Assembly: GCF_009469605.1 (NCBI RefSeq)
Contig: NZ_SSXU01000011.1
Location: 1-64,000, forward strand
Direction of reading: 5' to 3'
Origin: Zoogloea sp. 1C4
Lineage (GTDB): Bacteria > Pseudomonadota > Gammaproteobacteria > Burkholderiales > Rhodocyclaceae
Length of the DNA stretch: 64,000 nt
Part shown: positions 33,339 through 61,006 of the stretch, piece by piece
Layout of the letters: each line of letters begins with the position of its first letter
Numbering within the stretch: position 1 is the stretch's first letter
Made by a program: the position numbers and the translations under genes
Notes under the pieces: model-generated
The model's input: only the letters and a program-made list of their open reading frames with translations
The model's database searches: none
Told to the model about the DNA's origin: nothing

Positions 33339-34094
33339 TCACGCCTTGTGCAGCCGCACGTCCACCTCGCCGATGCGCCCTTCGGGTTCCGGCGCACCGA
33401 GGGTGAGGCCCAGCTCCAGTTCGCCCCGCACCACGCAGCGGGCCACGCCCAGTTGCCAGCCGGGGGCCGCAGGATCGAGGCTGCGGGTGATGCCGGCGAG
33501 GCTCACCTGCGGCTTGGCGAGGCGCAGGGCGAGGCGTGGCGCGGCGCCTTCAAGTTCGATCACGTTGGTCTCCGCGAAGGCTGCCAGCACCGCCGCGAGG
33601 CTGCTGGCGAGGAGCGCATCGGCGGTGGTGATGTCCTTCGCCCAGGCACGCAGCTCCAGGTCAATCCAGCCGCTGCGGCGCTCCCGGTAGCCTGCGCTGG
33701 GGGCGCCGCGGGTGCGCGCCTCCACCGGGCCGGGTGGCTCGCGGAAGAAGCGCAGGGTGCGGCCGTCCAGCAGATACGCGTCGCCGCCCGTCACGATGCG
33801 GCCCGGCGGGCAATGCACCTCGGCCAGCTCGCCCGACGCGTCGTCGGGCAGGGTGAAATCCAGCGGGTGGTCGGGCGTGGCGGTGAGCGTGCCCTGCCAG
33901 CCGAGGAAGGCCGGGTCGCGGATCGGCGTGTCGTCCGGGGCGGCGGGCGGGTCGAATTCGAGGCGCAGGGCGTGGAGGGCCACACGGCTGGCGGCGCCAT
34001 TGGGCGCGCTGGCGGGGCCGGTCTGAATGTCCTGCCCCGGCGGCAGGGCGGCGGTGAGGGCGGGGTTGAGCAGCTGTTCGAGGGGGCCGAGCAT
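33339..34094 (-). CDS. tail-operon distal protein, 251 aa, unknown
   Basis: The start MLGPLEQLLNPALTAALPPGQDIQTGP at 34094 is 3 bases after the preceding stop. The protein is all-beta-looking with acidic and proline-rich loops, then a helical stretch (ITTADALLASSLAAVLAAFAETN) and a beta end. The layout vaguely resembles cap/terminator proteins of contractile tails (DUF4255/Pvc16 type), but no diagnostic motif supports that. It is the last gene of the 27-kb array, just before the REP repeat. Payload, cap or fibre part all remain possible. Confidence 0.6.
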   Translation of the reverse strand: MLGPLEQLLNPALTAALPPGQDIQTGPASAPNGAASRVALHALRLEFDPPAAPDDTPIRDPAFLGWQGTLTATPDHPLDFTLPDDASGELAEVHCPPGRIVTGGDAYLLDGRTLRFFREPPGPVEARTRGAPSAGYRERRSGWIDLELRAWAKDITTADALLASSLAAVLAAFAETNVIELEGAAPRLALRLAKPQVSLAGITRSLDPAAPGWQLGVARCVVRGELELGLTLGAPEPEGRIGEVDVRLHKA

Positions 34095-34097
34095 GGG

Positions 34098-35399
34098 TCA
34101 GGGCTCCGGGTCGAGCACGCCGGCCTGGACTTGCAGCCACGGGCAGGGTGCGGGGGCGTCGAGAGGTAGCCAGGGGCCGTTTGCGCGGCGATGGAAGGCG
34201 CCGTCGACACCGGCGGGGCGGTGGTCGTCGGCGTACCACAGCAGGCTGCCGTGGTCGATGCGGCACACCAGCCACCAGGCTTGGCCGGTCAGCAGCTGGG
34301 GCGCCGGCAGGCGGCTGGTGGCCCAGCGGGGTTCGGCTTCGTCGTCGGCCGCGACGGCAAAAGGCCAGCGGACGATGGGTGCCTCCGCCGGGCTGCCGTG
34401 GCTGTCGGCGTGCAGGCTCAGCTCGCCGCTGGCGGCGTCGCCGGGGGTGCGCAGGTGCAGGCTCACGCTGGAAAGCTGCACGCCCTTGGGCAGCGCCGCG
34501 AAACGCTGCCCGGCGGTGTGGTCCGCATCGCACAGGCGGGCGACGCGGGTGGTGCCGGCGGCGGGCGCCAGCAGGTCGCGCTCGCCGGGGCGGGGCTTGT
34601 CGGGCGGTTCGGGCTGGGGCGCTGGCGGCGTGGTGGGCTTGGGCGGGGCTTCGAGTTCGGCGGCGAAGCTGACGCGCAGGGGCTGGGCGTTGGCGGTGGC
34701 GATGGTGAGCGGCACGGCGGTGGCCGACGGGTGATCGGCCAGATAGCGGTTGATGGCGCGGACGAGGCCATCCACAGTGAGCCCGGCGCCGGGCACCGGG
34801 CCATCCGGGCTGAAGAAGGGCGGATCGTCGCCCACCGCCACGCTGACGAGGCAGGGCTGCTTGGTGAAGCGCACGCCGATGCGCCGGCCGGTGAGGCTGC
34901 CAGGGATCAGCACGCCGGTGCGTTTCTCGGCGGCGTCGCCCTCGATCAGCATCTCGGCCATCAGGCGCGATGCGCACTGGGCGGGGAAGCGCTGCTCCGG
35001 CCCGGCGGGCAGGGTGTCAAGCGGCTGGAGCGGCAGCCAGGTGCCGCGGCTGAACACCCGCAGGCGGGCGCCGGTCTTGCGCGGCGGGGTGAGCGCGCCG
35101 GCTGCCGGGGGCGAGGCGTCGAGGTGGATGCCCACCAGGGCGCGGGTCTCGCCCCAGTCGGCGCTGGCCCACAGCCACGGGGCGTCGGCCTTGCCGGCCA
35201 TGGGGCCGGAGTCGGCGGTGAGGGCCGGATACTCCAAGGCCAGCTCGCCGCCGTCGGCGGCAGCGATCACCAGCTGCGCACTGGCTAGCCGGCGCCCGGC
35301 CGGCAGCACGATGCGGCAGGCCAGCCCGGCGGCGGCGTTGAAATCCCGCCCGGTGGCGGGCTTGCCGTCCGGGGCGAGGAGGGTGGCGGTGTCGGCCAC
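34098..35399 (-). CDS. tail-operon protein, 433 aa, unknown
   Basis: GTG at 35399 gives MADTATLLAPDGKPATGRDFN. The first 130 residues look like a beta-sandwich (CRIVLPAGRRLASAQLVIAA). A central domain holds VSVAVGDDPPFFSPDGPVPGAGLTV, and after a proline-rich linker (KPTTPPAPQPEPPDKPRPGE) a second beta domain ends with WLLVCR-like and WYADDHRP segments. Multi-domain beta architecture with a proline linker fits a surface or fibre-associated protein. No toxin motif is visible. Confidence 0.6.
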   Translation of the reverse strand: MADTATLLAPDGKPATGRDFNAAAGLACRIVLPAGRRLASAQLVIAAADGGELALEYPALTADSGPMAGKADAPWLWASADWGETRALVGIHLDASPPAAGALTPPRKTGARLRVFSRGTWLPLQPLDTLPAGPEQRFPAQCASRLMAEMLIEGDAAEKRTGVLIPGSLTGRRIGVRFTKQPCLVSVAVGDDPPFFSPDGPVPGAGLTVDGLVRAINRYLADHPSATAVPLTIATANAQPLRVSFAAELEAPPKPTTPPAPQPEPPDKPRPGERDLLAPAAGTTRVARLCDADHTAGQRFAALPKGVQLSSVSLHLRTPGDAASGELSLHADSHGSPAEAPIVRWPFAVAADDEAEPRWATSRLPAPQLLTGQAWWLVCRIDHGSLLWYADDHRPAGVDGAFHRRANGPWLPLDAPAPCPWLQVQAGVLDPEP

Positions 35400-35412
35400 G
35401 GCGGTGGGCGGT

Positions 35413-35628
35413 CTAGCGGGCGACGAGGCGTGGGCCGGCGGCTTCGCCGGTTTCGGCTGGCGGAGTCTCGGCGGCGAGGATTTCCTCGAGCACCTGGATG
35501 GCGCCGCTGATGCGCATGAGGGTGGTGCGCAGGTCTTCCTCCTTCTTCTGGAGGTCGGCTATCACGCCGAGGCCGGCGTCGTATTCGCTGCGCAGTTCGG
35601 CAAGGCGGCTTTCGATCTGTTCTTTCAT
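35413..35628 (-). CDS. small coiled-coil protein in the tail operon, 71 aa
   Basis: MKEQIESRLAELRSEYDAGLGVIADLQKKEEDLRTTLMRISGAIQVLEEIL is a single long heptad-patterned helix, followed by an acidic proline/threonine tail. It is probably a homo-oligomeric coiled coil. Its place right after the two fibre genes suggests a fibre-assembly or linker part; that is inference. Confidence 0.6.
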   Translation of the reverse strand: MKEQIESRLAELRSEYDAGLGVIADLQKKEEDLRTTLMRISGAIQVLEEILAAETPPAETGEAAGPRLVAR

Positions 35629-35647
35629 GGCGGTTTTCCGGTTGAGG

Positions 35648-37114
35648 TCAGCGGAGGAAGACGAACACGTCGATGAGGCCGGTGTCGCCGTCGAAATCGG
35701 CCAGGGCCTTGCCGATGGTGCAGCCGGTGGTGTTGTCGCCGGCGCGCATGGCGTGGCCGGGGAGCGATGCCGGCACCAGCAGGTTGCCCTTGCGGATCGG
35801 GCCGTTCTCGGCGCACACCTTGCACGGCACGCGGCCGGCCAGGGCGATGGGCTGCTCGCCGGCGATCCGCTCGTGCTGGAGGGCGTCGGCGCCCAGCAGC
35901 ATGCCGGGCTCGGTGGACACGACGCCCAGTACCAGCGGGTCGTGGGGCTGGCGGCAGCGTTCGACGCCGCTGCCGTCGGCGGTGAGGCTCACCACGTCGC
36001 CCGGCTCGATGGCTTCGAGGGTGGCGAAGTTTTCGGCCAGATCGCGGGCGCCGGTCTGCACGCCGTTCTTCGACCACATCGAGCCTTCGGCTTCGACGTC
36101 CCAGGTGTGGATGCCGCCGCCCCAGCCGCGGGTCTTGGGCGTTGGCGGGAAGCCGTTGGTGCCGAGGTTGCCAGTGATGGTCACGTTGCCGGTGATCGCC
36201 TGGCTACCCGCGAAGGTGTTGGCGCCGCGGGTGGCGAGTTCGTTCCAGGCGGAGTTCTGCGCGGTGGTCAGGCTGCCCGAGGCCATCTTGCGGAAGAACA
36301 GCCGGTCGTTCTCGGCGTAGCTAGCGCCAATCTGCAGCTGATAGTTGTTGGTAGTGTTGCTGTGGCGGCAGACGATCAGGTGGGTCCACGGGTGGGTGCC
36401 GTCGGGCACGTCGCCGGTGAGCTCGGCACCGCCGTTCTGGTAGAAGCCGGACTTGAGCGGCATGCCGAAATCTCCCGGCAGGCCGCCGGCGTTGAGGGAG
36501 CTGGCGTAGCCCAGCAGGGCGCCGCCTTCCACGTCGAGCCGGGCGCCCGGGCGGGCGATGCCGATGCCCAGATTGCCGTTGGTGTCGAGGCTGAGCCCGG
36601 TAGCGGTGCCGGTTTCGCCGGTGGGCGAGAACTGGTAGCCCACGTTGCCGCTGGCGACGACGAAGGATTTCACGTCGAGGAAGTAGCGGGTGTCGGGCGA
36701 GACGATGCGCAGGCTCGATTTGTTGCCGTCCCAGCCGCGGTCGTTCTGGGTGCTTACCTCGAGCCGGGCGGTGGGGGTGGCGGTGCCGACGCCCACGTCG
36801 CCGCTGGTGGTGAGCTTCGCGCCGGAGAAGCTGGCCAGCGCGGCGCGGATTTCGGCGAGCTGGGCGGTGCCGGTGACCTTGAGGGGGCCGCCGACGGTCA
36901 GCTCCTTCATGGCGTACCTGCTGTCCGGGTCGAGCTTGCTGGCGTCGATGGCCTTGTTCTGGATGGCGTCCCGGGGCAGCGGGGCGCCGAAGCCGCCGGT
37001 GTGGTTATGGGCGGCGATGTCTTCCTGGGCGCGGATCTGGACTTCGTTCCATTCGTCGGCGCGGATGATGTCGCCGGCGGTGCGTTTGACGTAGGGGGTG
37101 GGGCGGTCGGCCAT
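35648..37114 (-). CDS. tail fibre with shared N-terminal anchor
   Basis: This 488-residue protein starts MADRPTPYVKRTAGDIIRADEWNEVQIRAQEDIAAHNHTGG. This roughly 100-residue block (through VGGPLKVTGTAQLAEIRAALAS) matches the start of the next fibre (37127-38503). Beta-rich repeats with LGIGIARPGARLDVEGG-type turns follow. The C-terminal ARDLAENFATLEAIEPGDVVSL and LVLGVVSTEPGMLLG resembles the autocleaving or tip regions of phage fibres (Peptidase_G2-like, tentative). It presumably projects from the baseplate and recognises a surface. Confidence 0.78.
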   Translation of the reverse strand: MADRPTPYVKRTAGDIIRADEWNEVQIRAQEDIAAHNHTGGFGAPLPRDAIQNKAIDASKLDPDSRYAMKELTVGGPLKVTGTAQLAEIRAALASFSGAKLTTSGDVGVGTATPTARLEVSTQNDRGWDGNKSSLRIVSPDTRYFLDVKSFVVASGNVGYQFSPTGETGTATGLSLDTNGNLGIGIARPGARLDVEGGALLGYASSLNAGGLPGDFGMPLKSGFYQNGGAELTGDVPDGTHPWTHLIVCRHSNTTNNYQLQIGASYAENDRLFFRKMASGSLTTAQNSAWNELATRGANTFAGSQAITGNVTITGNLGTNGFPPTPKTRGWGGGIHTWDVEAEGSMWSKNGVQTGARDLAENFATLEAIEPGDVVSLTADGSGVERCRQPHDPLVLGVVSTEPGMLLGADALQHERIAGEQPIALAGRVPCKVCAENGPIRKGNLLVPASLPGHAMRAGDNTTGCTIGKALADFDGDTGLIDVFVFLR

Positions 37115-37126
37115 GGTGGGTCTTCC

Positions 37127-38503
37127 TCAGGGGTGGGCCGGCAGCGCGGCGCGCAGTTCGTCGATCATGGCCTGTTGCTCTTTCACGGCCTGGACGAGCA
37201 GGCCGATGACCGCCGCCGGGTTGATGCCTTTCCAGCCGTCGGGGCCTTCGGCGACGGCGTCGGGGAGTACGGCCTCGAGTTCCTGGGCGATCAGACCGAC
37301 GGAGCGGCCGCCGCTGCGCCAGTCGAAGCGCACGCCGCGCAGCTTGCAGAGGGCGGCGGTGGCGTTTTCGAGGACGCGGACGTTGTCCTTCAGGCGCAGG
37401 TCGGAGCCCGTGAAGCCGCCTTTGGTGCACCACATTTCGCCGGCCGCGAAGCCGCCGTAGTAGCCGGTGTTGTCCACGTTGAACAGGCGCAGCCAGCCGT
37501 CGTTGCCGTGGGCGTCGCCGACGGCCGACATGCGCCATTTCTTGCCCAGGCGCAGCACGTCGGTCTGGAGCACGCCGTCGTTCACGTTGAGCTGGAAGCG
37601 CGTGTCGCCGGTGCGCGCGTTGACGATGTTGAGGCTGTGGGTGACGCTCAGATAGCCTTTCTCGGGGGCGCTGGGTTCGTCGCGCTTGTTCCAGATGGCG
37701 AACTTGGGCGTGCCTGCCGGGGGGGCGTCGACGGTGTAGTCGAGCACGAGCGCGCCATTGACCTCCAGGCGGTCCCAGACGGAAACACGCCGCCCCAGGC
37801 CGGCGCTGCGGTTGCCCATGAGCATCAGGGTCTGGTACTTGTCGGTGTCGTTGCGGATCTCGGCTTCGCCGGGGCCCAGGGCGGGGGCGGTCGTCGTGCC
37901 CGTGCGTCCCGACGCGGAGATGCGCAGGAGGCTCTGGCTGGGAAACAGGTCGAGGATCGGAAGGCCCGGGTCCTGCTTGATGCCCAGGCGCAGGCGCATC
38001 TCGCCGCCGACGATCAGGCTGAGCGGGTGGGCGCTGCGGGTGCCGACGATCAGGCCCGCGTCGGCGCCGTAGATGCCGGCGCCGTGGGCCATCACCCGGC
38101 CGTCCACGCCGCCGGCGCGGATCGACAGCTTGGCGTGGGCGCCGCCCAGGATGTCCACCACGCGGCTCCAGCCTTCGCCGTTCTCGGGGGCGTCGGTGCC
38201 CACCGCGAGATCGCCGCTGAGACTGGCGAGGGTGGCCTGGATGTCGGCGAGCTGGGCGGTGCCGCTGACCTTGAGGGGGCCGCCCACCGCGAGGCCCTTG
38301 AGGGTGAGCCGGCTTTCCGGGTCGACCTTGCTGCCGTCGATGGCCTTGTCGGCGATACCGTCGCGGGGGATGCGGGTGGCGTCGCCGGTGTGGTCGTGGG
38401 TGCGCAGCTCGGTGCGGGCGCGCACCTGGATCTCGTTCCAGTCGGCGGCGAGCATGATGTCGCCAGGCTCCTTCCGGATGTAGGGGGTGGGGGTTTCGGC
38501 CAT
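37127..38503 (-). CDS. tail fibre with S74 intramolecular chaperone domain
   Basis: This 458-residue protein starts MAETPTPYIRKEPGDIMLAADWNEIQ, paralogous to the N-terminus of the neighbouring fibre. The middle is a beta-rich shaft. The C-terminus (about 370-458) has TGSDLRLKDNVRVL, VRFDWRSGG and SVGLIAQELEAVLPDAV, the peptidase S74 (endosialidase chaperone) signature that trimerises and cuts itself off. The start codon shares one base with the preceding stop (TGATG). It is probably a trimeric receptor-binding fibre. Confidence 0.88.
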   Translation of the reverse strand: MAETPTPYIRKEPGDIMLAADWNEIQVRARTELRTHDHTGDATRIPRDGIADKAIDGSKVDPESRLTLKGLAVGGPLKVSGTAQLADIQATLASLSGDLAVGTDAPENGEGWSRVVDILGGAHAKLSIRAGGVDGRVMAHGAGIYGADAGLIVGTRSAHPLSLIVGGEMRLRLGIKQDPGLPILDLFPSQSLLRISASGRTGTTTAPALGPGEAEIRNDTDKYQTLMLMGNRSAGLGRRVSVWDRLEVNGALVLDYTVDAPPAGTPKFAIWNKRDEPSAPEKGYLSVTHSLNIVNARTGDTRFQLNVNDGVLQTDVLRLGKKWRMSAVGDAHGNDGWLRLFNVDNTGYYGGFAAGEMWCTKGGFTGSDLRLKDNVRVLENATAALCKLRGVRFDWRSGGRSVGLIAQELEAVLPDAVAEGPDGWKGINPAAVIGLLVQAVKEQQAMIDELRAALPAHP

Positions 38504-38979
38504 CAGAAGATCACCTCCCAGCTGAGCGTCATCTCCAGGTTGCCGGCGCGATTGACCACCGGAAACGTGACGCGGTTGTAGAGCACGGGTTCGGCGCCGG
38601 TGACGCTGATCAGGATCCCGGCCTCCTGGAGCGGCTGCGGGTCGGCGCTGCCGGTGGGCGGCAGGGTGGCCACCACCCGGGCGATGACGCGCGGCTGGCC
38701 TTCGTAGTCGCCGCTCGCAACGCTGGGGATGGTGGCGGGCGCGGCCACGACGAAATCGCCCAGGGCGGTGTCGGTGACCTGCGCCGGGGCGGCCGAGCGG
38801 CCCACCGCGATCTGCAGATCCGGGCTCTGGGCGCTGCCGGTGAACAGCCGGGCGAGCAGCGCGCGGCCGGCGCTGGTGATGAGGTTGTTCACCCGGCGGG
38901 CGTCCACCAGCCGGCCGCTGGCGTCGCGCAGTTCGATGGAAAGGCGTCCGGCGAGACCGTGGGATTCGTGCATCGGCAT
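38503..38979 (-). CDS. tail-associated protein, 158 aa, unknown
   Basis: The protein reads MPMHESHGLAGRLSIELRDASGRLVDARRVNNLITSAGRALLARLF. The RRVNNLITSAGRALLARLF block and a final beta segment (LYNRVTFPVVNRAGNLEMTLSWEVIF) recall short phage-tail proteins located next to fibre genes, which often join fibre to baseplate. No catalytic site. It overlaps the start of the S74 fibre by one base, so they are co-translated. Confidence 0.62.
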   Translation of the reverse strand: MPMHESHGLAGRLSIELRDASGRLVDARRVNNLITSAGRALLARLFTGSAQSPDLQIAVGRSAAPAQVTDTALGDFVVAAPATIPSVASGDYEGQPRVIARVVATLPPTGSADPQPLQEAGILISVTGAEPVLYNRVTFPVVNRAGNLEMTLSWEVIF

Positions 38980-39027
38980 GGGGTCACTCCTTCGATGGGG
39001 CGGGGCTGGAGGGCGGGCGGCGAGGGC

Positions 39028-40911
39028 TCATCGGCTGTGGCTCCAGTCGAGGCGGGTGGTGTCGAACACGCCGCCGACGGAGAACGGACCGTCGGCGCTG
39101 TCGTGGGCGTCCCGCAGGGTGGTGGCGAGGGTGAAGCGCAGCGGGCCGTCGGCGGGGGCGGCGTCCTCGGTCCAGCGCTGGCCGGTGGCGAGGCCCAGGC
39201 GCTCGGCGCTGTTTAGGGCGTCGCGGTGGGTGGGTTCGGGGAAGTCGATGCTGGCGCGCACGCCGGCGGCGGTGGCCCGGGCGATGTCGTCCCGCAGGAG
39301 CGGCAGCGCGCCCCGGGCGGCGGCGGCGGCAACCCATTCGTTGCGCGGGATGCGCAGCCGGATGCTGGCCGGCGGGCGGGTCATCCAGTCGAGGCGCAGG
39401 CTGAGGCGCGGCGTGTGGGCGGTGTCGGTCTCGGTGGTGCCGCCGGTGTCGGTCTTGTTGAAGGATTCGAGGAGCACCGAGGCGTAGCGGGCGTCGCCTT
39501 CGCCGATGGTGCCGTCCAGCAGCGCGAAGCGCGTGCCGTCCAGGTCGTCGTGGCCGGCGAAGCGGGAGGCGTGCACGGTATCGCCGGGGCCGGCGAAGGC
39601 GGCGTCGGGCTGGGCGAAGGTGAGCAGCATCCAGCCGTTGGCGCCGGGGGCGAGGCGGGGGGTGAGCACGCGCTGCTCCAGCACCCCGCAGCGCATGCTG
39701 CCGAAGGCGGCGCCGCGGTCGTCGAGGCGGTTGCCCCACAGGTAGAAGATCGAGTTGCTCACGTCGCGCTCGTGGCCCTCGCGGTTGATGAGCACGGCCC
39801 GCCCGGCCGGGTGGTTGGCGGCCCAGGCGTGGTGGCCGGGGGCGTCGAAGCCGTCGAAGGGGGCCGTCTCGGCTGGGCTGACGGCCGGGTACAGGACGAG
39901 GGTGTCGCCGGGCTGAAGGGTGCCGGCGTAGAGGGTGATCTCGCCGCTGCCCAGGCTGCGCAGGGCCGGGTAGGGGGCGGGCTGGTCGCGCACGCCAAGG
40001 GTGACCACCGGGCGATCCGGGTGCAGGCTGGCGCTGGTTACGGTGAACACCCGGCGCAGGCGCGGCGCGGGCTCGACGTGGCGGGCGGCGAGGGTCGGGT
40101 TCTCGGTGATCCACGCTTCCACCACCGCCTGGGCGCGGCTGGGACAGGGCTGGGTGCGGTCGCTGCCGGTACAGCCGGCGCAGCGCTTGCGAGTGCCCGG
40201 CGGCATGCCGAAGGCGAGGGTGGCGTCCTGGCGGCGTTCGAGGCGCGGGCAGGGCTCGGCGCCCAGGTCGGCGATGGCGAGGGACAGCAGGGCGCGGGGC
40301 GTGGTGAGGCCGCCGGTGCGCACCCGGGCGGTGATCAGCAGGCGCTGGCGGAAGGTCTCGCCGGGTTCGGGGTCGAGCACCGCCTGGAAGCGGGCGAGGG
40401 CGGCGGGGGCGGTTTCGGGCGGGGCGGCGGGATCGGGCTCGGCGGTGAGGCCCTGGCCGTCGCCACCGAGCACAAAACGCAGGCCGTCGAAGCGGGCGGC
40501 GAGGAGCACCGCCGGGTCGTCGGGCGGCTGGCCGCCCTGGCTGCGCCGCCAGCCGCTGCCCACCAGCTCGTCGAGGGCGTCGGCAAGCGGCGCGACGTGG
40601 TCGAAGCGCACGCTGATCTCGCCGGGGTTGCGGCTGTAGCCGGCGTGGTGGACCCGCGGTGGCAGGCGCGACACCTGCAGCAGGCGGCCCAGGCCTTCGA
40701 GGGCGCTGGCTTCGTCCGGCGCGGGCAGCTGCGCGCTGGCGAGGCCGACCCAGCGGTCGTACTGGATGCGGGTGAGGGTGTCGTCCACCCGCCCGAGGCT
40801 GGCCGCCATGCTGTCGATCAGCGCGCCCACGGCGCTCGACGAGGGCTGGGCGGTGAAGATCCGCGGCAGGAGGGCGAGGAGGCGCTCGCGGCGCACCCGC
40901 AGGTCAGCCAT
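39028..40911 (-). CDS. large baseplate wedge / fibre adaptor protein
   Basis: The first 70 residues (MADLRVRRERLLALLPRIFTAQPSSSAVGALIDSMAASLGRVDDTL) look like the gpI-type wedge adaptor that follows gpJ in contractile tails, and the gene starts 8 bases inside the gpJ gene. The 627-residue length is far above gpI. A cysteine-rich GTRKRCAGCTGSDRTQPC segment (about 245-262) and long beta-rich domains follow, with FLDWM..RPPASIRLRIPRNEW late in the chain. It probably combines a wedge end with a decoration or receptor domain. Confidence 0.68.
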   Translation of the reverse strand: MADLRVRRERLLALLPRIFTAQPSSSAVGALIDSMAASLGRVDDTLTRIQYDRWVGLASAQLPAPDEASALEGLGRLLQVSRLPPRVHHAGYSRNPGEISVRFDHVAPLADALDELVGSGWRRSQGGQPPDDPAVLLAARFDGLRFVLGGDGQGLTAEPDPAAPPETAPAALARFQAVLDPEPGETFRQRLLITARVRTGGLTTPRALLSLAIADLGAEPCPRLERRQDATLAFGMPPGTRKRCAGCTGSDRTQPCPSRAQAVVEAWITENPTLAARHVEPAPRLRRVFTVTSASLHPDRPVVTLGVRDQPAPYPALRSLGSGEITLYAGTLQPGDTLVLYPAVSPAETAPFDGFDAPGHHAWAANHPAGRAVLINREGHERDVSNSIFYLWGNRLDDRGAAFGSMRCGVLEQRVLTPRLAPGANGWMLLTFAQPDAAFAGPGDTVHASRFAGHDDLDGTRFALLDGTIGEGDARYASVLLESFNKTDTGGTTETDTAHTPRLSLRLDWMTRPPASIRLRIPRNEWVAAAAARGALPLLRDDIARATAAGVRASIDFPEPTHRDALNSAERLGLATGQRWTEDAAPADGPLRFTLATTLRDAHDSADGPFSVGGVFDTTRLDWSHSR

Positions 40912-42827: not shown

Positions 42828-42837
42828 CAGCGCGTCC

Positions 42838-45213: not shown

Positions 45214-45218
45214 GATGC

Positions 45219-49782: not shown

Positions 49783-50175
49783 TTACTCCTCGCGCACGCG
49801 GGTGGCGCTGAAACTGTAGGCGGTCACCACCGTGCCACCGGCGCCGAGGCTGAACGACTTGTCCTCGATGTAGCAGTCGTCGAAGGACAGGGTGCGCTTG
49901 GGCGAGTCGGCGGCGTCGTCCTTCTTGAGGTTGGCGACGAGCTGGAACTTGGCCTGCTTGTCCAGGTGGCCGTCGAGCTTGAAGTTGGCCGAGCGCACGG
50001 TGAGTTCGCCCTGCACGGTGCGCAGGCCGAAGCTCACGGCGACCCGTTCGTCGCTGCCCACGGCGCGGATGTCCTCGCGCTCGGTGACGACCCGGAAGGC
50101 CAGCGATTGCAGCCCTTCGATGGCTTCGCCATCGACCAGCACGCTGGAGCGGTTGGCGGAAAAGACGGTCGGCAT
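49783..50175 (-). CDS. contractile tail tube protein
   Basis: This 130-residue protein starts MPTVFSANRSSVLVDGEAIEGLQSLAFRVVTEREDIRAVGSDERVAVSFG. It continues LTVRSANFKLDGHLDKQAKFQLVANLKKD and ends FDDCYIEDKSFSLGAGGTVVTAYSFSATRVREE. The alternating beta-strand pattern and size fit an inner-tube (gp19/Hcp-like) protein. It follows the sheath gene, as tubes do. Only one tube gene is present, whereas eCIS usually have two or more. Confidence 0.78.
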   Translation of the reverse strand: MPTVFSANRSSVLVDGEAIEGLQSLAFRVVTEREDIRAVGSDERVAVSFGLRTVQGELTVRSANFKLDGHLDKQAKFQLVANLKKDDAADSPKRTLSFDDCYIEDKSFSLGAGGTVVTAYSFSATRVREE

Positions 50176-51696: not shown

Positions 51697-51792
51697 CTTC
51701 GCGGATGCGAAGGGTTTATGACGCAGGGTTCGCGTTTCGTCATGGAAACGCGGTCTGCCTAATCAGACTAGATCGCGGCGTGCCGATGTCAA
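51697..51792 (-). promoter_or_regulatory. promoter and structured leader before the sheath operon
   Basis: A perfect TTGACA (51792-51787) overlaps the stop codon of the WD40 gene. A weak TAGTCT lies 16 bases further (51770-51765). The leader that follows would contain two hairpins: CGCGTTTC/GAAACGCG (51731-51752) and CTTCGC/GCGAAG (51697-51712) before the Shine-Dalgarno. The -10 is poor, so an activator or other sigma factor may be needed. Confidence 0.4.
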
Positions 51793-54700: not shown

Positions 54701-55388
54701 GGATGGCGGCACGGCGGTCGTCGCGGCTCATCCGCGGCACCAGGTACTGCCCGCCGTTGATGGCCTCGGGCAGGCCGGCGAAGCGGGCGCAGTCGCCGAG
54801 GAAATCCGAGCGCATGGTGAGCACGATGTGGATCGGCACGTCCTCGGTGCGGGCCTGGAGCAGCAGATTGACGAAGGCCGTGGCCGGGTCTTCGTCGGCG
54901 GGGCCGGTGTCGCCCAGCTGGCGGTAGCGGAAAAGTTCTTCGAACTGGTCGACGATCACCAGCAGGTTGGTGCCTTCGGGCAGGCGGGCCTGCTGCCAGG
55001 CTTCGACCAGCCCCCGGCGGCTCATGGCGAGGGTGGTCTCGATGAATTCGGCGAGGCTGAAGGGGCCGGCGTCCATCTCCCGGTGCAGCGCGCCGGGGGC
55101 GGCGAGGGCCTGGGCCAGCGCCCGCAGCGGGTGGCCGCCGGGGCGGCAGCTGGCCATCCGCCAGGCGCTGCCGGCGCGGGTGAGGAGGCCCCGGTGCAGG
55201 GCCGGGCGCAGGCCGCAGTTGACCAGCGACGACTTGCCGCAGCCCGAGCTGCCGATCACCGCCAGGAAGCGCCCCCGGGCGAGGGTGTCGACCATCGCGT
55301 CCACCTGGGATTCGCGGCCGAAGAAGAGGTATTCCTCGTCCTCGCGGAAGGGGCGGATGCCGGGGTAGGGTGCGGCTGGCGTGCTCAT
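51789..55388 (-). CDS. nSTAND NTPase with transmembrane helix and 14 WD40 repeats
   Basis: The 1199-residue protein starts MSTPAAPYPGIRPFREDEEYLFFGRESQVD, the classic entry to nSTAND1 NTPases. Walker A GSSGCGKSS is at 46-54 and the Walker B-like NLLVIVDQFEELFRYR comes later, followed by winged-helix and helical parts. A single transmembrane helix lies at about 503-523 (VWRATLGAIIAATLVAGVTGVLW). Residues 590-1199 contain fourteen WD40 units (SPDG...ASAG...DGxVxLW type), enough for two seven-bladed propellers. STAND proteins work as ligand-triggered switches in defence and signalling. It overlaps the TIR gene (ATGA) and precedes the sheath operon. Confidence 0.9.
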   Translation of the reverse strand: MSTPAAPYPGIRPFREDEEYLFFGRESQVDAMVDTLARGRFLAVIGSSGCGKSSLVNCGLRPALHRGLLTRAGSAWRMASCRPGGHPLRALAQALAAPGALHREMDAGPFSLAEFIETTLAMSRRGLVEAWQQARLPEGTNLLVIVDQFEELFRYRQLGDTGPADEDPATAFVNLLLQARTEDVPIHIVLTMRSDFLGDCARFAGLPEAINGGQYLVPRMSRDDRRAAILGPARVCGADIEPTLLTRLVNDVGDDPDQLSLLQHALARSWAHWQASGEPSPVEARHYDAVGTLAHALNQHAEEIFATLPAAHQLRCAAAFRALTDTSTDTRGIRRPTRFAVLEAITAGNAEAASAPLAQVLDPFRAPGAAFLMPPAGEPLEADTVIDLAHESLMRIWDRLREWGEREADAARMLRRLADATDLHAAGEASLWRDPELQFALDWRTRNHPTEAWARQYGRPLAPALAFLDASREARDAAVAAEAARLEAERKAEAERRRNRRVWRATLGAIIAATLVAGVTGVLWQRAERASEVAISRQLAAQSAAELTGGNLARALSLAAAGYAHEPSFEARDSLLAALADAPLDWRHAGQRGVQALARSPDGTLASGGRDGSIRFFPDRGPPLAAHQEQVLALAFSPDGTLLASAGIDHRVILWRMADRKPVATLEDHDGPVLALAWSPDGRVLASAGADRRIVLRDGTTGAPVGPAITDHADTVTGLAFSPDGKTLASTGYDGNLIVHPLGDNPAPRRSASHPAVLHGLAWSPDGRQIATASADGHAVLWQADRLVPIGEPLPGRDAALRKVGFSDDGRRLVAVGEDGQVRIHDLARPGNRPVEHAVHRGNVLALVFQPDGSFVTAGSDDLLVTHGRSGHGPLTTPLPGADDTAWALAWRPDGRVIASAAGARIELRDGVTGKPVAPPLAGHDAIVASLAWSPDGRLLAGAGQDGRLLVWNTAAPANPPLRLVDGGPPLRRVAIRGDGQQLAAAGLDGRIRLWRLPDGAPLATSADHGGPVSDLAWRRDGSLLASSGLDGHLRLWRGSDLQPAGDFAPPDAGALYRLAWTGDGYALALATQRQGLILWPASGGPARPLGREAAPLLDLALSPDGQTLASTDRDGRVFLWDMSSGQPLHAPLLRHAGPGLALAWAPDSARLATTGWGQGVLISRTAADAWAEHACSLVRLNPPEGADTPSCGQAPTRP

Positions 55389-56872
55389 GGCGTCGCTCCT
55401 GCGCCAAGCGCGGCGAAGAGCGGGGCGAGGGTGGCTTCGTCGATGCCGCCGAGGCCGTCGAGCACGCCGGGTTCGGCGAGGGCCTGGAGGACTTCCTTGT
55501 CGTCGCTGGGGGGCTCGGCGAGGAGCGTCAGGCTGGCCTTGAGGGGGCGCTCGCGGGCGCTGCCCAGGAGCTTGCGCAGGTCGTTCTGCTGGTGGAACTT
55601 CCACGCTTCGTCGCCGGCGCCGTAGTAGAGCACGATGGCGTCGCAGTCGAGGGCGAACTGGCGGTTGGTCTCGCGCACCTGGGCGGCGTCGCCCACGAAG
55701 GCCGGCAGGCTCACCTCCAGTCCGCGGGCGCGCAGCAGCTTGATGAGAGGCACGACGGCCTTGCGGTCGGCGGCGTCGCACACCAGATGGACCCGGGCGC
55801 TGCCGGCCACCGGCGGGGCGGGCGGCGGTTCGGGGGGCTTGAGGGCGGCGTGGACGGCGGACTTGGTGGTCTCCAGGTCGCCGCTCACCAGATCGGCGCC
55901 GAACTGCAGCGCGGCGTCGGTCTGCAGGGCGTCGATGAAGGCCTGCTGGGCGGGCTGGGGCGAGGTGACGCCAGCGGGCAGCCAGATCACCCGGCGCAGG
56001 CCGTGGCTGCGGCTGCGGGCGGCGGCGAGCTCGTTCTGCAGCATCACTACCGATTGCTGGCGGTCGCCGTCCGGGACGCGGCCGTAGCCCGTGCCCACCA
56101 GATGCACCGACAGCACGCAGCGTTCGAGGAGTGCATCCACCGCGGCGAGGTATTCGTCCTCGTCGTCGGGCAGGCGTTCGTCGGGCAGCACGGTGAAGCC
56201 GCAGCAGGCGAGCTCGCTGGCGATGCAGTCGCGGGCCTCGCGCCGGTCGCGGCTGCATTCGGCGAGGTACACCGCGGGTTTCGGGCCGGGGTCGTTGGCG
56301 GCGTCTTCGGTGACCTGCGGGCGGCGCTGGAGTTCGGTGAGCTGGGCGGCGAGATCCCAGGCGAGCTTGTTGGCCTTGCGCAGGAAGGCCTGGCGCGGCT
56401 TGTCGCCGTAGGCGGGGTCGAGCTCGTGGGGGACGTGCTCCTCGTCGATCTCATAGAAGTCGTAGCCCAGGAGGCGCCCGAGCACCGGCGGGAGCTGGTC
56501 GCCGGCATCGACCGGCAGCTTGAGCACCTTGATGACCCGGGCCTTGTTGTCCAGCACCAGGCTGTTGTCGGCCTCGGCGCGCTGGCAGAAGCTGCGGATT
56601 TCCTTCTTGCACCAGTCGGACTTGAGGTAGCGCGGGGTGAGGATGGAGACGAACACCGCGGTGCCGGCGAGCTGGTCGAGGATCTCGTCGGAGAAGTCGT
56701 CGTTGCCGTGGAGCTTGTCGTCGCGCCAGATGTCGGCGGGGGCGCCGAGGCGCTGACTGAGGAGCGTCTGCAGGGTTGAATGGAACAGGCTCACCCAGCC
56801 GGACTGATCCGCGCTGAGGGGCTGGTTGTCCAGGTGGGCGTAGCTGATGAAGATCTGCCGGGCGAACTTCAT
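55385..56872 (-). CDS. TIR-domain protein with two further TIR-like domains
   Basis: ATG 56872 (MKFARQIFISYAHLDNQPL) gives 495 residues. Residues 1-140 are a TIR domain: FISYAH, IWRDDKLHGNDDFSDEILDQL, AVFVSILTPRYLKSDWCKKEI with the WCxxE (W87, E91) that aligns with the catalytic Glu of TIR NADases. Residues 205-330 (KPAVYLAECSRDRREARDCIASEL, VLSVHLVGTGYG) and 365-490 (ARVHLVCDAADRKAVVPLIKLLRARGLEVSLP, CDAIVLYYGAGDEAW) look like degenerate TIR/DUF4062-type folds without that Glu. Start and stop are coupled by ATGA to both neighbours. It is probably the effector or adaptor of the STAND protein. Confidence 0.88.
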   Translation of the reverse strand: MKFARQIFISYAHLDNQPLSADQSGWVSLFHSTLQTLLSQRLGAPADIWRDDKLHGNDDFSDEILDQLAGTAVFVSILTPRYLKSDWCKKEIRSFCQRAEADNSLVLDNKARVIKVLKLPVDAGDQLPPVLGRLLGYDFYEIDEEHVPHELDPAYGDKPRQAFLRKANKLAWDLAAQLTELQRRPQVTEDAANDPGPKPAVYLAECSRDRREARDCIASELACCGFTVLPDERLPDDEDEYLAAVDALLERCVLSVHLVGTGYGRVPDGDRQQSVVMLQNELAAARSRSHGLRRVIWLPAGVTSPQPAQQAFIDALQTDAALQFGADLVSGDLETTKSAVHAALKPPEPPPAPPVAGSARVHLVCDAADRKAVVPLIKLLRARGLEVSLPAFVGDAAQVRETNRQFALDCDAIVLYYGAGDEAWKFHQQNDLRKLLGSARERPLKASLTLLAEPPSDDKEVLQALAEPGVLDGLGGIDEATLAPLFAALGAGATP

Positions 56873-57717
56873 CGTAAGGCTCCGGGCAGGGGCGGCAGGG
56901 CGACGCCGGGGGGCAGGTAGCGGCCGAGCCAGGCGGCGAGGGCGTCCGGGTGCCACAGCTTCATGCCGAGGCGGGCGAGGGCGGCGAATGGCGCCGCGTC
57001 GGGCATCGAGTGGTAGCGGCGCAGGCGCAGATCCTGGGGCGTGCCGGCGGGGCGGTGGCCGGCGGCGCAGGCCTCGATGGCGGCGAGCAGGGTGGGGATG
57101 GCCAGCGGGTAGAGGGCGGCAGTCTGGTCGAGCAGGTTGCCGGCCAGGTCGATGGGCTGGTCGATGACGTTGAGCAGCGGGCCGTCGTCGATGCCCGGGG
57201 TGATCCAGTGCACGCTGCAGCCGAAGGCCCCGGCGCCGTCGGTGACGGCCCGGAGCGGCGCGTGCAGCCCTGCGTAGCCGGGCAGGCGGCCGGGATGGAC
57301 GTTGAGGATGCCGTGGCGCGGGATGGCGATGCTGGCGGCGTCGAAGAGGTGGCTGAAGCGGGCGACGATGACGAGATCGGGCGCAAGGGTGGCGAAGCGG
57401 GCGCGAGTGGCGGCGTCGAGGGCAGTGATGACTTCCACCGGTGTGGCGTGGCGCCGGCCGAGGGTGGCGAAGGTGGCGTCCGGGGCGCGGTCGGCCTGGT
57501 CAAAGGGCAGGGCGTCGATCAGCGGGAAGAGCAGGTCGATGGGAAGCAGGCGTTCAAGAAAGCGCAGCTGGGCGAGCTCGGGCACGTGGTCTTCGGCCGG
57601 GCGGTTCTTGTCGGCCAGCCACAGGCTGACGATCTCGTGCCCGGCGAGGGCCGGCAGCAGGCGGTTGGCGAAGTGGGCGCCGTGCAGATCGAGCTTGGTG
57701 CACACCAGGATGCGCAT
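56869..57717 (-). CDS. formyltransferase-like enzyme
   Basis: The 282-residue protein reads MRILVCTKLDLHGAHFANRLLPALAGHEIVSLW, then LDLVIVARFSHLF, ILNVHPGRLPGYAGLHAPLRAV and CSVHWITPGIDDGPLLNVIDQPI. These are the formyltransferase motifs, with the catalytic Asn-x-His and the later His and Asp in place. Substrate could be a nucleotide sugar, amino sugar or glycinamide ribotide; nothing decides it. It shares one base (TGATG) with the previous gene and overlaps the TIR gene, so it is part of the operon. Confidence 0.75.
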   Translation of the reverse strand: MRILVCTKLDLHGAHFANRLLPALAGHEIVSLWLADKNRPAEDHVPELAQLRFLERLLPIDLLFPLIDALPFDQADRAPDATFATLGRRHATPVEVITALDAATRARFATLAPDLVIVARFSHLFDAASIAIPRHGILNVHPGRLPGYAGLHAPLRAVTDGAGAFGCSVHWITPGIDDGPLLNVIDQPIDLAGNLLDQTAALYPLAIPTLLAAIEACAAGHRPAGTPQDLRLRRYHSMPDAAPFAALARLGMKLWHPDALAAWLGRYLPPGVALPPLPGALR

Positions 57718-58739
57718 CAGCGGTCCTCCGCCTGGATGCCGACGATCTCGGCCACGTCGAGCAGCTTGAGGGGCGGGTAGCGGCCCAGCTGCAGGGCCAC
57801 CGGCAGGTTGATGAGGTAGGAGAAGTTGCGCGGCAGTTCCACCGGGATGCGCGCCGGCGGGGTGTGGTCGCGCAGGATGCGCAGGGCCTGGGTGGCGGTG
57901 AAGCGGCCGACGTCCTCGTATTTGTTCACCACGCCCAGCAGGGCGCGGGCGTTCTGCACCGGGTTCTCGGCGGCGGCGAAGACGGGGATGCCGAGGGCCA
58001 GCGCGCCGTCGGTGAGCTGCTCGCGGCGGCTGTTGAGGAAGGTGTCGGGGCCCTGGTAGATGAGATCCACCTTCTCCTGCCGGAAGGCGTCGAGGATGGC
58101 GGGGATCGCCCGGGCGTCCGGCGCGCCGGCGGGCGACACCGGCAGGCTGCGCTCCACCAGCGTGAAGCCGTGGGTTTTGGCCAGGGCCCGCAGGTCGTCC
58201 CGGGCGGTGATCGAGTTGTTCTCGGTTTCGTTCACGATGTAGCCGACCCGCTTGAAATCCAGATAGCTGCGGGCGGCCTTGATCTGGGTTTCCATGGGCA
58301 GCAGGTAGAGCGTGCCGGTGACGTTGCCGCGGGGCTTGTCCGGCGCCTCGATGACGCCCAGCGCCACGGGGTCGGAGACGATCATGAAGACCACTGGCAG
58401 CTCGGTGATGTGGCGGCGCGGATCGGCGCCCTTCCACGGGCCGACGGTTTCCAGCGTCACCGTCGAGCCCCAGGTGACCACCAGATCGGGCTTCAGGCGG
58501 CGGATCTCGTCCACCATCGTCGGGATGCGCCGCTTGTCCTGGGCGGCGTCGCGGAGGATGAACTCGGCCGGAATGCCGTGCTGGCGGAAGTAGCCCTGAA
58601 AGCCCCGGCAGGCTTCCTCGCAGCCCCGGAAGAGCAGCATCGCCACCCGGTAGGGCGCGGCTTCGGCGGCGGCGGGCGTCGGCAGCAGGCTGGTGGCGGC
58701 CAGCAGCAGCGGAAGCAGGCGATCGGTCAGGCGTTTCAT
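57717..58739 (-). CDS. ABC-type periplasmic binding protein
   Basis: The 340-residue protein has a signal peptide (MKRLTDRLLPLLLAATSLLPTPAAAEA). The mature part matches the ABC_sub_bind family: YRVAMLLFRGCEEACRGFQGYFRQHGIP, DLVVTWGSTVTLETVGPW, VVFMIVSDPVALGVIEAPDKPRGNVTG and PVFAAAENPVQNARALLGVVNKYEDVGR. Such proteins usually sit beside a permease and ATPase, but here only a sensor-MFS protein is next to it, so it may be a ligand-sensing lipid-like partner rather than part of a transporter. The ATGA overlap links it to that gene. Confidence 0.8.
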   Translation of the reverse strand: MKRLTDRLLPLLLAATSLLPTPAAAEAAPYRVAMLLFRGCEEACRGFQGYFRQHGIPAEFILRDAAQDKRRIPTMVDEIRRLKPDLVVTWGSTVTLETVGPWKGADPRRHITELPVVFMIVSDPVALGVIEAPDKPRGNVTGTLYLLPMETQIKAARSYLDFKRVGYIVNETENNSITARDDLRALAKTHGFTLVERSLPVSPAGAPDARAIPAILDAFRQEKVDLIYQGPDTFLNSRREQLTDGALALGIPVFAAAENPVQNARALLGVVNKYEDVGRFTATQALRILRDHTPPARIPVELPRNFSYLINLPVALQLGRYPPLKLLDVAEIVGIQAEDR

Positions 58740-61006
58740 GGAGCGGGTTCCTTCCCGTTCGACAGGGCGAAAACCAGGATCGCCGTGAGGACCACGGCAC
58801 CGATTGCCGCCATCGTACCGCCATATGCCAAAAGCCCGAACAGGCTGCCGGCAAAGAGGGGGCCGGCCACCGCGCCAAGGCGTTCGCCGGTGCGCAGCAG
58901 CACCAGGGCCGGCGGGCCGTCGCGGCCGATCATCGACTGCAGCGCGGCGGCGCCCAGCCCGGTGCCGATGCCGAGGGTGGCGATCCCCACCACCAGCGCG
59001 CCGGGCCCCGGCATCAGCCCGGCCAGCCCGCCGGCGCCGATGATGAGCCCGCCGACCACCACCAGCCGGCGGTTCCAGCCGTAGCGATCCGACAGCCACG
59101 AGCCGAGGGGGTTGGCGAGCGCGGCGAGCAGGAAATACAGCATCAGCGCCCGCCCGGTGGCGCCGCTGCCGTAGCCCTCCTGGCGCAGGGCTAGCGGCAC
59201 CAGATAGAACAGGAAGCCGGCCAGGGCCAGCTTGGCGGGCAGGGCCGCGGTGAGCAGCGGCAGCCACACCCGCGGGCGGGCCAGCACCGGCAGCAGCGGG
59301 GCCGACGGGCGGGGCGTTGCCGCCGGGCCCGGGCTCGCGTCGGCCCGCTGGACGGCCAGCGCCAACACGCCCAGCACTGCGGCGCCGGCAAACACCACGG
59401 CCGCGCCGAAGCGTTCGGCGATCAGCCCGCCGATGGCCGAGCCGCAGATCGCCGCGGTCTGCAGCGCGCCCACGTAGAGCGCCAGGGCGCGGGTGCGTTC
59501 GCCGGCCGCGGCGGCGTTCAGGAAGTGCTGCTGCATCGCCATCGTGCCCACCGCGTAGCCGGCGGCGCACAGGCAGCGGGCGGCCACGAAGGCCCAGTAG
59601 CCGCCGCCGGCCATCGCCCAGCCGAAGCCGGCCGCCGACAGCAGGGCGCCGGCGGCGAAGGTGCGGGCCACGCCGTAGCGCTCGGCCCAGCGCCCGGCAA
59701 ACGGGGTGAACAGCGCAAAACTGAGCATGTAGGCGGAGATCGGCAGCCCGATGGCGGCGCCGTCGGCGGGGGCGAGGCTGGCGATGTGGAGCGGCAGGAA
59801 GGCGCGGGTGAGCTCTTCCGACAGGATCAGCAGGAACACCGACAGCCGGGCCAGGCCCAGGCGGGCGCGGCTGGCGGCGGGGGCGAGCTCGTCGCCGGCG
59901 AGGATCGCCCCGAGGGCTTCGTTGAACAGCACCACGGCCACCACGAAGACGATGGCGAGGTCGAGGGTCAGGCTGCGCAGCTCCCGGGCTACCACGTCGC
60001 CGTCGGTGACGACGCGCACCTGCGCGCCGGGCTGGGCGCCGAGGGGCGTGACGACCTCGCTGCCGGCCTCGCCGGGGCGTCGGGCGGTGTCGCTCCGGCC
60101 CGGGCCTTCCAGATGGAAGGCGAGGATCTCCGGGTGGCGGGCGAGGGTGTCGTCGAAGTAGTCGCCGACGCCGGCAAGATGCTCGAAGGGGATGCCCAGA
60201 TCGACGGCGTTGTCGATGCGTCCGGCCAGCAGCCGGCCCAGCGCCGCGGCCTTGGCGTCGAGGGCCGGGGCGAGCTGCTCCGAAAACCCCGGCAGCGCCT
60301 GCAGGCTGAGGGTGAGGCTGCTTGCGCAGGCGAGGAGGAGGGCAGCGGCGAGCAGCCGCACGCGCAGGGCGATGCGCCGGCCAAGGTGGGCCGCGGCCGC
60401 GAGCAGCAGGGGCAGGGCGAGGGCGACGCCGGCGAGGGTCAGGCCGAGGCGCAGGAAGGTGGCGTCGCGGCCCGCCTTCAGTCGCGCTTCCAGCGCATCG
60501 CTGCGTACCGTGAAGAGCACGCCGCCGGCCAGCTGGTCTTCTGCATCGCGCAGCGACTGGCCGACCAGCAGCGGCTCGCCCGGCGCGCAGTGGGACCACA
60601 GGCTGGTGCGGTGGAGGACGGCGTCGGCGGCGCCGGCGGGCGGCTCGCCCGGGCCGAGGGCGAAGCGCAGCTGCCGGTGGCTGTCGAAGACGTGGATGGC
60701 GGTGATGTCGGCGTCGTCGGCGACGAGCCGGGGCAGGAGCCGCGCGATGCCACGGGCTTCGGCGAGGGTCAGGCCGTTGGCAGCGCTGCGGGTGAAGGTG
60801 GCGCGGATCTCGTCGGCGGCAATGCCGATGCGGGACGCGGTGAGGCCGGTGAGGAGCTCGCCTTCCTTGTGGATCAGCAGCAGGGCCTGCAGGCCGAGGG
60901 CGAGGGCCTGGGCGACGAACAGAAGGAGCCCGATGCGCAGCCAGCGGGCGAGGGTGAGTCTGGGGGCTGCCGCCGGAAGCGGGGGCTGGCTGGCTGAGGG
61001 GGACAT
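58736..61006 (-). CDS. MFS permease fused to two extracytoplasmic sensor domains
   Basis: ATG 61006 with AGGAG at good spacing is preferred to a GTG nine bases upstream. Residues 22-45 and 188-235 are membrane helices bordering a first extracytoplasmic sensor (50-185, HVFDSHRQLRFALGPG). A second sensor-like stretch lies at about 240-350. From about 360 come the twelve helices of an MFS transporter (FTPFAGRWAERYGVARTF, NPLGSWLSDRYGWNRRLV). Sensor-plus-MFS fusions are uncommon. With the binding protein next to it, it may sense a ligand for the whole array. Confidence 0.82.
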   Translation of the reverse strand: MSPSASQPPLPAAAPRLTLARWLRIGLLLFVAQALALGLQALLLIHKEGELLTGLTASRIGIAADEIRATFTRSAANGLTLAEARGIARLLPRLVADDADITAIHVFDSHRQLRFALGPGEPPAGAADAVLHRTSLWSHCAPGEPLLVGQSLRDAEDQLAGGVLFTVRSDALEARLKAGRDATFLRLGLTLAGVALALPLLLAAAAHLGRRIALRVRLLAAALLLACASSLTLSLQALPGFSEQLAPALDAKAAALGRLLAGRIDNAVDLGIPFEHLAGVGDYFDDTLARHPEILAFHLEGPGRSDTARRPGEAGSEVVTPLGAQPGAQVRVVTDGDVVARELRSLTLDLAIVFVVAVVLFNEALGAILAGDELAPAASRARLGLARLSVFLLILSEELTRAFLPLHIASLAPADGAAIGLPISAYMLSFALFTPFAGRWAERYGVARTFAAGALLSAAGFGWAMAGGGYWAFVAARCLCAAGYAVGTMAMQQHFLNAAAAGERTRALALYVGALQTAAICGSAIGGLIAERFGAAVVFAGAAVLGVLALAVQRADASPGPAATPRPSAPLLPVLARPRVWLPLLTAALPAKLALAGFLFYLVPLALRQEGYGSGATGRALMLYFLLAALANPLGSWLSDRYGWNRRLVVVGGLIIGAGGLAGLMPGPGALVVGIATLGIGTGLGAAALQSMIGRDGPPALVLLRTGERLGAVAGPLFAGSLFGLLAYGGTMAAIGAVVLTAILVFALSNGKEPAP

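Follow-up and report, generated by a model that had tools for sequence, protein, structure and literature searches.

A stretch of 64,000 nucleotides from the floc-forming bacterium Zoogloea sp. 1C4 (the window; start of the 149-kb contig NZ_SSXU01000011.1, in a 5.0-Mb assembly) carries, at positions 33339-61006 and entirely on the minus strand, a block of 24 called genes (g25-g48) in which a 19-gene contractile tail unit (g25-g43) lies downstream of an operon of five genes (g44-g48). These five encode a sensor-like transporter of the major facilitator superfamily (MFS), a substrate-binding protein (SBP), a formyltransferase-fold enzyme, a TIR protein and an nSTAND1-WD40 NTPase. Judged from its genes, the block appears to be an unusual contractile injection system (CIS) locus that is inherited as a unit, and a CIS with such a switch block seems not to have been described in the literature searched; the open-licence papers gave no description of a contractile injection system joined to a TIR/STAND switch. 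The block is made of three modules that also exist separately, namely the tail, the trio of MFS, SBP and formyltransferase, and the TIR-nSTAND pair. A sequence-only reading of this DNA had proposed a single-strand array of tail genes and five conflict or sensing genes, and gene calling, Pfam and PHROGs bear this out. Its estimate of about 20 tail genes becomes 19, with the tail-type identity of the key parts upheld and 12 of the 19 having no Pfam match (matches counted at E<=0.01).

Co-inheritance within the genus

The genus sample comprised 23 genomes, and the sheath search covered 149 relatives including the genus. Sheath, MFS, formyltransferase and a strong TIR match were each found in nine of the 23, and it was the same nine genomes for all four genes; the TIR search gave one extra weak match, in genome G017. 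The baseplate gene gpJ was detected in 10/23, the tenth being G001, a 72% complete genome in which g34 to the start of g29 lie on a 4.2-kb contig, no ftsY was recovered and the upstream half is not assessable. The transporter gene g48 is near full length in eight genomes (including G000) and partial at a contig end in G007. This same-nine-genome concordance rules out accidental adjacency within the genus. The co-occurrence that the sequence-only reading had offered as a check is thus non-accidental here, with the upstream genes in 9/9 assessable tail-bearing genomes and absent at the cut-offs used from 13 others, a deletion scar in G022 and a diverged MFS fragment in G016 aside.

The block is flanked by wecB (g24) on the plus strand and ftsY (g49) on the minus strand, and this site and the gene order are unchanged in six complete loci besides the window, with g30 not detected in G005. 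The block is split over two contigs in G014 and its parts over three in G007, and the order agrees in both (g36-g40 and g25-g27 of G007 being incompletely seen). Sheath identity to the window is 83-97% across the genus, and eight named records carry the same locus at 82-97%. Among the 14 sheath-less genomes, 11 have an empty site, where the ftsY and wecB matches are neighbours separated by no more than about 380 nt. Genome G022 retains the scar, in which codons 17-96 of g48 are fused to codons 182-249 of g25, and in G016 the contig ends within a g48 copy of 43% identity. Restricting the sample to assemblies of 90% completeness or more and 5% contamination or less (n=15) leaves eight with all four genes and seven with none, the weak TIR match of G017 aside; the chance of this concordance is 1/C(15,8)=1.6e-4 with phylogeny ignored.

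A two-gene tree, in which three deep nodes are supported at only 34, scatters the block across the genus, with block-less G022 as sister to block-bearing G005 (100% support) and G002 as sister to G012. This scatter means that the whole block has been lost repeatedly or exchanged at one site. Ratios of nonsynonymous to synonymous substitution (dN/dS), taken from three close pairs, were 0.00-0.30 for 23 of the 24 genes (two or three pairs per gene) and 0.44-0.53 for g40 (three pairs). As the values are low in all modules, switch and tail are both being maintained.

Gene content and the switch-tail junction

All genes described here are on the minus strand. The first gene of the upstream operon, g48 (58736..61006), matches Pfam MFS_1 (2.8e-41) and shows hydropathy peaks, with membrane-bounded loops at its N-terminus ahead of the transporter part; these loops may have a sensor role. 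It is followed by g47 (57717..58739), an ABC_sub_bind protein (Pfam, 3.1e-23) that is probably periplasmic and scores far under the cut-off of the NCBIfam TrpX-like family; no ABC permease match was found in the block. The formyltransferase-fold enzyme g46 (56869..57717; Formyl_trans_N, 2.2e-17) has N139, H141 and D177, which we take to be the catalytic residues, invariant in 9/9 genomes. The TIR protein g45 (55385..56872; TIR_2, 4.3e-11) keeps E91 in all nine, presumably the catalytic glutamate position of NADase TIR effectors. Its middle part is DUF4062-like, with a Pfam score under the cut-off, and a third part is TIR-like by eye. Comparison of g45 with NCBIfam gave matches to FxsC_Nterm (2.8e-18, 66.5 bits against a cut-off of 130) and Thoeris ThcB4 (5.2e-5, 22.3 bits against a cut-off of 220); as these equivalog cut-offs are not reached, assignment as a Thoeris type III or FxsC-type TIR protein was rejected.

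The last gene of the operon, g44 (51789..55388), has the domains of an nSTAND1-WD40 NTPase (Pfam nSTAND1, 1.1e-90; WD40, 5.9e-81), with the P-loop GSSGCGKSS and the motif DQFEELF (DQFEE box) invariant in 8/8 aligned sequences and one transmembrane helix predicted from a hydropathy peak at residues 505-523. In G000, where 52 of 72 first-look candidates were scored, no other nSTAND1 match reaches E<=1e-10, and such proteins are sparse across the genus, at 0 to 4 matches per genome. The WD40 part (window 51789-53630), in which many repeats are spaced 126-129 nt, diverges faster than the nSTAND part (54-59% against 79-86% identity in five more distant genomes) and varies in length in frame, with a loss of about 31 amino acids in G014 and of 125 in G015. 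A fast, length-variable WD40 part is as expected of a recognition surface.

Neighbouring genes of the operon overlap by four nucleotides at the MFS-SBP junction in 8/8 genomes and at the formyltransferase-TIR and TIR-STAND junctions in 9/9 each, and the SBP-formyltransferase junction is -1 in five of nine and +1 in the other four; the stop/start overlaps noted from the window alone are therefore a conserved feature of the genus loci. PADLOC assigned the five upstream proteins to no system, giving only repeat or P-loop matches for g44 (HEAT-ARM_XIII on the WD40 part, mad8 and mad3) and nothing for g45-g48.

The distance from STAND to sheath is 130-144 bp in 9/9 genomes. Within it, a promoter-like box (TTGACA-N16-TAnnCT, with the start of a dyad; 51763..51792, minus strand) begins at the STAND stop codon and is kept in all nine. 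In 45 alignment columns starting just before this stop codon, 24 (53%) are invariant among the nine genomes compared with one (2%) of the next 45, and the box pattern, with up to one mismatch allowed, occurs a single time in the window against 0.01 expected. A mechanical sigma-70 scan did not list the box, the second hexamer of which is a poor match. The adjoining dyad consists of five pairs, two of them altered on both sides; this covariation is modest, the observed score being reached in 32/500 shuffles and the count of both-side changes in 205/500. In Chitiniphilus, which has the same tail, the sheath is preceded by a called gene on the opposite strand, so that this tail needs a promoter of its own. 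Transcription of the Zoogloea tail probably starts at a separate, conserved promoter, and what had been called one array, while contiguous and on one strand, probably forms two transcription units, switch and tail.

Twelve of the 24 genes have a Pfam match, namely the five upstream genes and seven of the tail. PHROGs assigns further tail genes lacking one, such as g28, g30 and the tube candidate g42, a profile search against solved structures adds the hub g39, and the labels of g31, g34, g37, g40 and g41 are guesses from position and sequence. The sheath g43 (50225..51655) matches Phage_sheath_1 (8.3e-11; 42.4 bits against a cut-off of 31.4) and a sheath PHROG (1.9e-27), and its profile matches seven solved sheath sequences, Afp3 among them, the best being 9ezm (1.7e-16). 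The inner-tube candidate g42 (49783..50175), 94-98% identical within the genus, matches a minor-tail PHROG (4.1e-6) and more weakly a major-head PHROG (2.7e-4), with no Pfam or PDB sequence match. Gene g41 (48960..49778) follows the tube also in Chitiniphilus, Chitinolyticbacter and Thiolinea and has no Pfam or PHROG match; its PDB matches were to TALE repeats only, with no stretch passing alone, and were discarded. The Pro/Ala-rich, fast-evolving g40 (47785..49170; start codon uncertain, the gene caller having picked 48450) is a linker or tape-like candidate and matches no Pfam or PHROG family.

The hub g39 (46751..47788) has no Pfam or PHROG match, and its profile matches solved spike/VgrG chains (9gtr, 1.5e-6; 7aef, 9.5e-6). 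It is followed by g38 (45773..46654), a baseplate hub or DNA_circ_N-like protein (Pfam DNA_circ_N, a weak 1.3e-4; PHROG hub, 6.1e-6), and by g36-g37 (44161..45776), both conserved in Chitiniphilus, of which g36 (44161-45213) is a PG_binding_1 protein (1e-8) and the small g37 has no family match. The spike g35 (43493..44131) has a gp5/VgrG OB domain (Pfam, 9.3e-7) and matches PDB 7aef, Pvc8, All3320, Afp8 and several VgrG chains; the spike-tip candidate g34 (42838..43485), with three repeats, is PAAR-like by eye only and has no Pfam or PHROG match. The wedge protein g33 (42414-42827) is gp25/sheath-initiator-like (PHROG baseplate, 3e-19; Pfam GPW_gp25, 23.3 bits, under the cut-off of 27.2), and g32 (40904-42424) is baseplate J (Pfam, 3.2e-21, 76.2 bits against a cut-off of 21.1; PHROG, 7.6e-52). 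Genes g30-g31 (38503..40911) are candidates for baseplate or fibre attachment, a role guessed from position; g30 matches PHROG 5417, a family of unknown function (1.5e-16), and g31 gave no useful Pfam or PHROG match and one chance-level PDB match. The tail fibres g28-g29 (35648..38503) match fibre families of PHROGs, g28 weakly (2.1e-5), and g29 (37127-38503) carries an S74 chaperone (Pfam, 2e-13), through which it also matches a head-category PHROG (4.6e-8). Finally, g25-g27 (33339..35628), the 3' end of the tail operon, match no family and have in-order orthologues in Chitiniphilus at 36-53% identity.

Searches with Pfam (24 genes) and PHROGs (19 tail genes) gave no match to terminase, portal, integrase, repressor or lysis genes, nor to holin, endolysin or spanin, which for g29 and g44 holds among the best 25 families. 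No phage regulators or head genes were found in the locus apart from the head-category PHROG matches of g42 (weak) and g29 (S74-borne), and no toxin-like effector domain was matched by Pfam among the tail genes.

The block is richer in GC (0.69-0.78 over 34000-62000 in 2-kb steps) than the 4-34 kb part of the window (0.64-0.70). Elsewhere in the window, positions 5207-13048 hold a DUF927/Toprim protein, a phage-type integrase and a Fic protein, possibly a separate integrated element unrelated to the tail block, and a called open reading frame (ORF) at 19371-20237 covers a tRNA-Ser gene (19519-19612) and is probably spurious.

The modules in other genomes

A scan of genome_contigs returned 18 sheath loci, eight from the genus and ten from outside it. 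In Chitiniphilus all 19 tail genes are present in identical order (30-85% identity), and tail-only relatives also occur in Chitinolyticbacter, Thiolinea and archaeal metagenome-assembled genomes (MAGs). Beside the ten out-of-genus tails no match to g44-g48 was found at E<=1e-3 in the locus DNA, although such genes could lie elsewhere in these genomes. At least 7 kb of upstream DNA was available in six of the loci and less in four, and none of these six (0/6) matches any of the five genes. The suggestion that TIR/STAND heads this tail type generally was accordingly rejected on the ten loci.

This type of tail, with a sheath identity of 40-44%, is also found on archaeal MAG contigs (L085-L088; Bathyarchaeota, Thermoprotei) and on L129, a contig filed among viral ones, whose sheath is 55-73% identical to the archaeal ones. 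In Thiolinea disciformis (L083:4985-9542), the tail is preceded by a P-loop/TPR protein, a histidine kinase and a gene resembling a response regulator on the other strand. The P-loop/TPR protein, considered as a possible convergent STAND head, matches TPR-type repeat families only and is STAND-like by eye only, and the kinase and regulator-like genes intervene. Searches of the sheath against 50,697 phage and 72,556 plasmid records gave no match at 1e-5, and the TIR protein had none in the plasmid records. In viral_contigs, searched with short peptide patterns, the sheath retrieved one archaeal-like tail contig and gpJ, tube and TIR retrieved none. Transfer of the block by plasmid or phage, considered as a possibility, found no supporting match in the phage and plasmid records.

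The formyltransferase occurs in 10/296 family genomes, four of them outside the genus and all four with SBP and MFS genes nearby. In G647 and G030 the trio is ordered as in Zoogloea. In G511, whose formyltransferase contains a single internal stop and whose MFS part is called as two ORFs, the arrangement is convergent, and in G633 the SBP and MFS genes are about 4 kb from the formyltransferase. An order-level search added two same-order trios (G170, G245), along with two genomes having SBP and MFS and no formyltransferase match (G325, G435); it gave MFS matches in 17 genomes, of which G000 and four others were inspected, the alignments of the other 12 covering just the MFS half. A divergent gene for a caspase (Peptidase_C14)-FGE-sulfatase protein lies beside the trio in three of five assessable loci (L101:10637-14877, L102:10292-14528 and L125:8217-12603); the trios of L103 and L104 have no such neighbour, judged from gene starts, and L126 is too short. 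The same three genes, ordered as in Zoogloea in G647, G030 and G170, are thus found with caspase-FGE instead of TIR-STAND, which suggests that the trio may be a sensor unit paired with different conflict effectors. Two further proteins, one an AAA_16/NACHT-like TPR protein and the other also of AAA type, are encoded close to the G647 trio (L101:3274-7141).

The TIR protein was found in one other of 321 class genomes (G866), where it shares the DUF4062 part with g45 and is followed by an nSTAND1 protein in which no WD40 part was seen. G017 (L041:1-2508), a block-free genome of the genus, has a further, more distant TIR-nSTAND1 pair whose genes overlap. Both show the TIR-then-nSTAND1 adjacency of the block, and neither has a tail-gene match alongside. 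The five upstream genes, read at first as one module, therefore do form an overlapping operon but divide into a three-gene sensor unit and a two-gene TIR-STAND unit, each found apart without a tail.

Readings of the locus

By the domains tested, the layout departs from those of standard extracellular CIS (eCIS), tailocins, Mu/P2 prophages and the type VI secretion system (T6SS), as had been proposed. With the eCIS, the block shares spike, hub and sheath profiles, which match 7aef, 7adz, All3320, Pvc8, Afp8 and Afp3 (representing AlgoCIS, the tCIS of Anabaena, PVC and AFP, where we take 7aef and 7adz to be AlgoCIS and All3320 to be tCIS). Unlike them, it has separate hub and spike genes, an S74 fibre and no gp19-type tube match; Pfam at E<=0.01 found no Phage_T4_gp19 tube, PAAR motif or Phage_GPD in the block. 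The sheath and baseplate J of the eCIS core, as its domains are given in the available text of PMC8213781, are both present, and that main text has no word starting with TIR or WD40. None of the 19 tail genes matched DUF4255, an AAA ATPase or DUF4157, the rest of the genome not having been searched. With the T6SS the block has the spike OB domain in common, and neither Pfam nor PHROGs found a T6SS membrane complex or ClpV in it, again in a search limited to the block and not extended to the rest of the genome.

The reading that we favour, tentatively and at somewhat less than even probability, is that a TIR/STAND death switch gated by a ligand or by stress has been joined in one block to a non-prophage, chromosomal 19-gene CIS. 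In its favour are the co-inheritance of switch and tail at one site and in one order, the purifying selection on both, the position of g44 as sole strong nSTAND1 match in G000 and the fast-diverging WD40 part. The binding protein and sensor-MFS would report an extracytoplasmic ligand or stress, and the membrane-anchored nSTAND1-WD40 protein would integrate that signal, or one from phage or stress, and then oligomerise, as its family suggests. Its TIR partner may then deplete or convert NAD, killing or arresting the producer, and through this death step particles assembled beforehand would be freed or become exposed to their target; alternatively, they may fire within the dying producer, as happens in Streptomyces. 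We hypothesise that the switch controls firing or expression of the tail, and functional coupling of the two is plausible. The block shows no recognisable lysis gene, which is why a death step is proposed for particle release; as the tail is probably on its own promoter, coupling would act through the timing of death, release or firing rather than simple co-transcription.

Switch-gated release also draws on precedent. According to the portions of PMC10066040 and PMC12237407 available to us, the cytoplasmic CIS of Streptomyces brings about the death of stressed cells, and contraction and function require CisA, a protein with an SBP-like periplasmic domain. The likeness to this CIS-Sc lies in a contractile system, an SBP-like part that in Zoogloea is probably periplasmic, and stress-linked cell death, which in Zoogloea is a proposal; those portions describe no TIR/STAND, whereas Zoogloea has a separate SBP, a sensor-MFS and the TIR/nSTAND pair. 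Some eCIS loci have no lysis and regulatory genes, as reported in the available part of PMC10598620, and the haloarchaeal systems carry an upstream membrane gene (PMC11566945, in part), a parallel for upstream accessory genes. A more specific version, in which an NLR-like switch (the membrane nSTAND1-WD40 protein with TIR), fed by the periplasmic sensor trio, triggers CIS death-and-release or firing in place of a holin/lysin or CisA step and so acts as an immune receptor whose output includes the launch of an injection machine, is rather unlikely.

Several observations weigh against the joined switch. In Chitiniphilus and elsewhere this tail has none of the five genes as neighbours, trio and TIR-nSTAND pair each occur with no adjoining tail, the association of switch and tail is seen in one genus only, and the conserved promoter-like box lies between the two. 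In addition, neighbours are lost together by a single deletion or allele exchange regardless of function, so that concordance is weak evidence of coupling. An alternative is nearly as likely and explains most of the facts nearly as well, in which the locus is an island of independent weapons, with a CIS for antagonism, a TIR-nSTAND abortive-infection pair and a sensor-transport trio that are gained and lost jointly only as neighbours. Every module stands alone elsewhere, the tail has its own promoter-like box, and single-event loss of the whole block fits the G022 scar. Set against such an island, no assessable genome retains only one module across a genus divergence that takes sheath identity to the window down to 83%, the order is constant in the six complete loci with all modules under purifying selection, and the trio and pair are linked by an overlap in 9/9 genomes.

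It is improbable that the TIR-nSTAND pair acts as a guard that detects, by means of WD40, the tails of incoming phages or particles that have been wrongly assembled or have misfired, and then kills the cell. The nSTAND-WD40 architecture would suit a receptor, judging by what is known of the family, and WD40 is the fast-evolving part, but tail-only relatives exist without TIR-nSTAND. A prophage or R-tailocin that has degenerated or been domesticated and carries passenger genes, suggested by the phage-tail families of the tail parts, the head-category matches of g42 and g29 and one matched solved sheath labelled as a major tail sheath protein, is very improbable and was rejected, as Pfam and PHROGs matched no other head gene and no packaging, integration, repressor or lysis gene, the sheath is unmatched in phage and plasmid records and its sole viral_contigs contig is archaeal-like, the spike and sheath profiles match eCIS-type and related chains (Pvc8, Afp8, Afp3, VgrG), and the ftsY-wecB site is empty in 11 genomes.

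The regulation of contractile systems that have no lysis cassette is described as unclear in the available part of PMC10598620. If TIR/STAND does not control the tail, the locus would still be a stable three-module island, and its tail would still represent a CIS type with no recognisable AAA ATPase that is common to bacteria and archaea. If a TIR/STAND death switch does regulate the CIS, immune signalling and an injection machine would meet in one locus of a cultured environmental genus.

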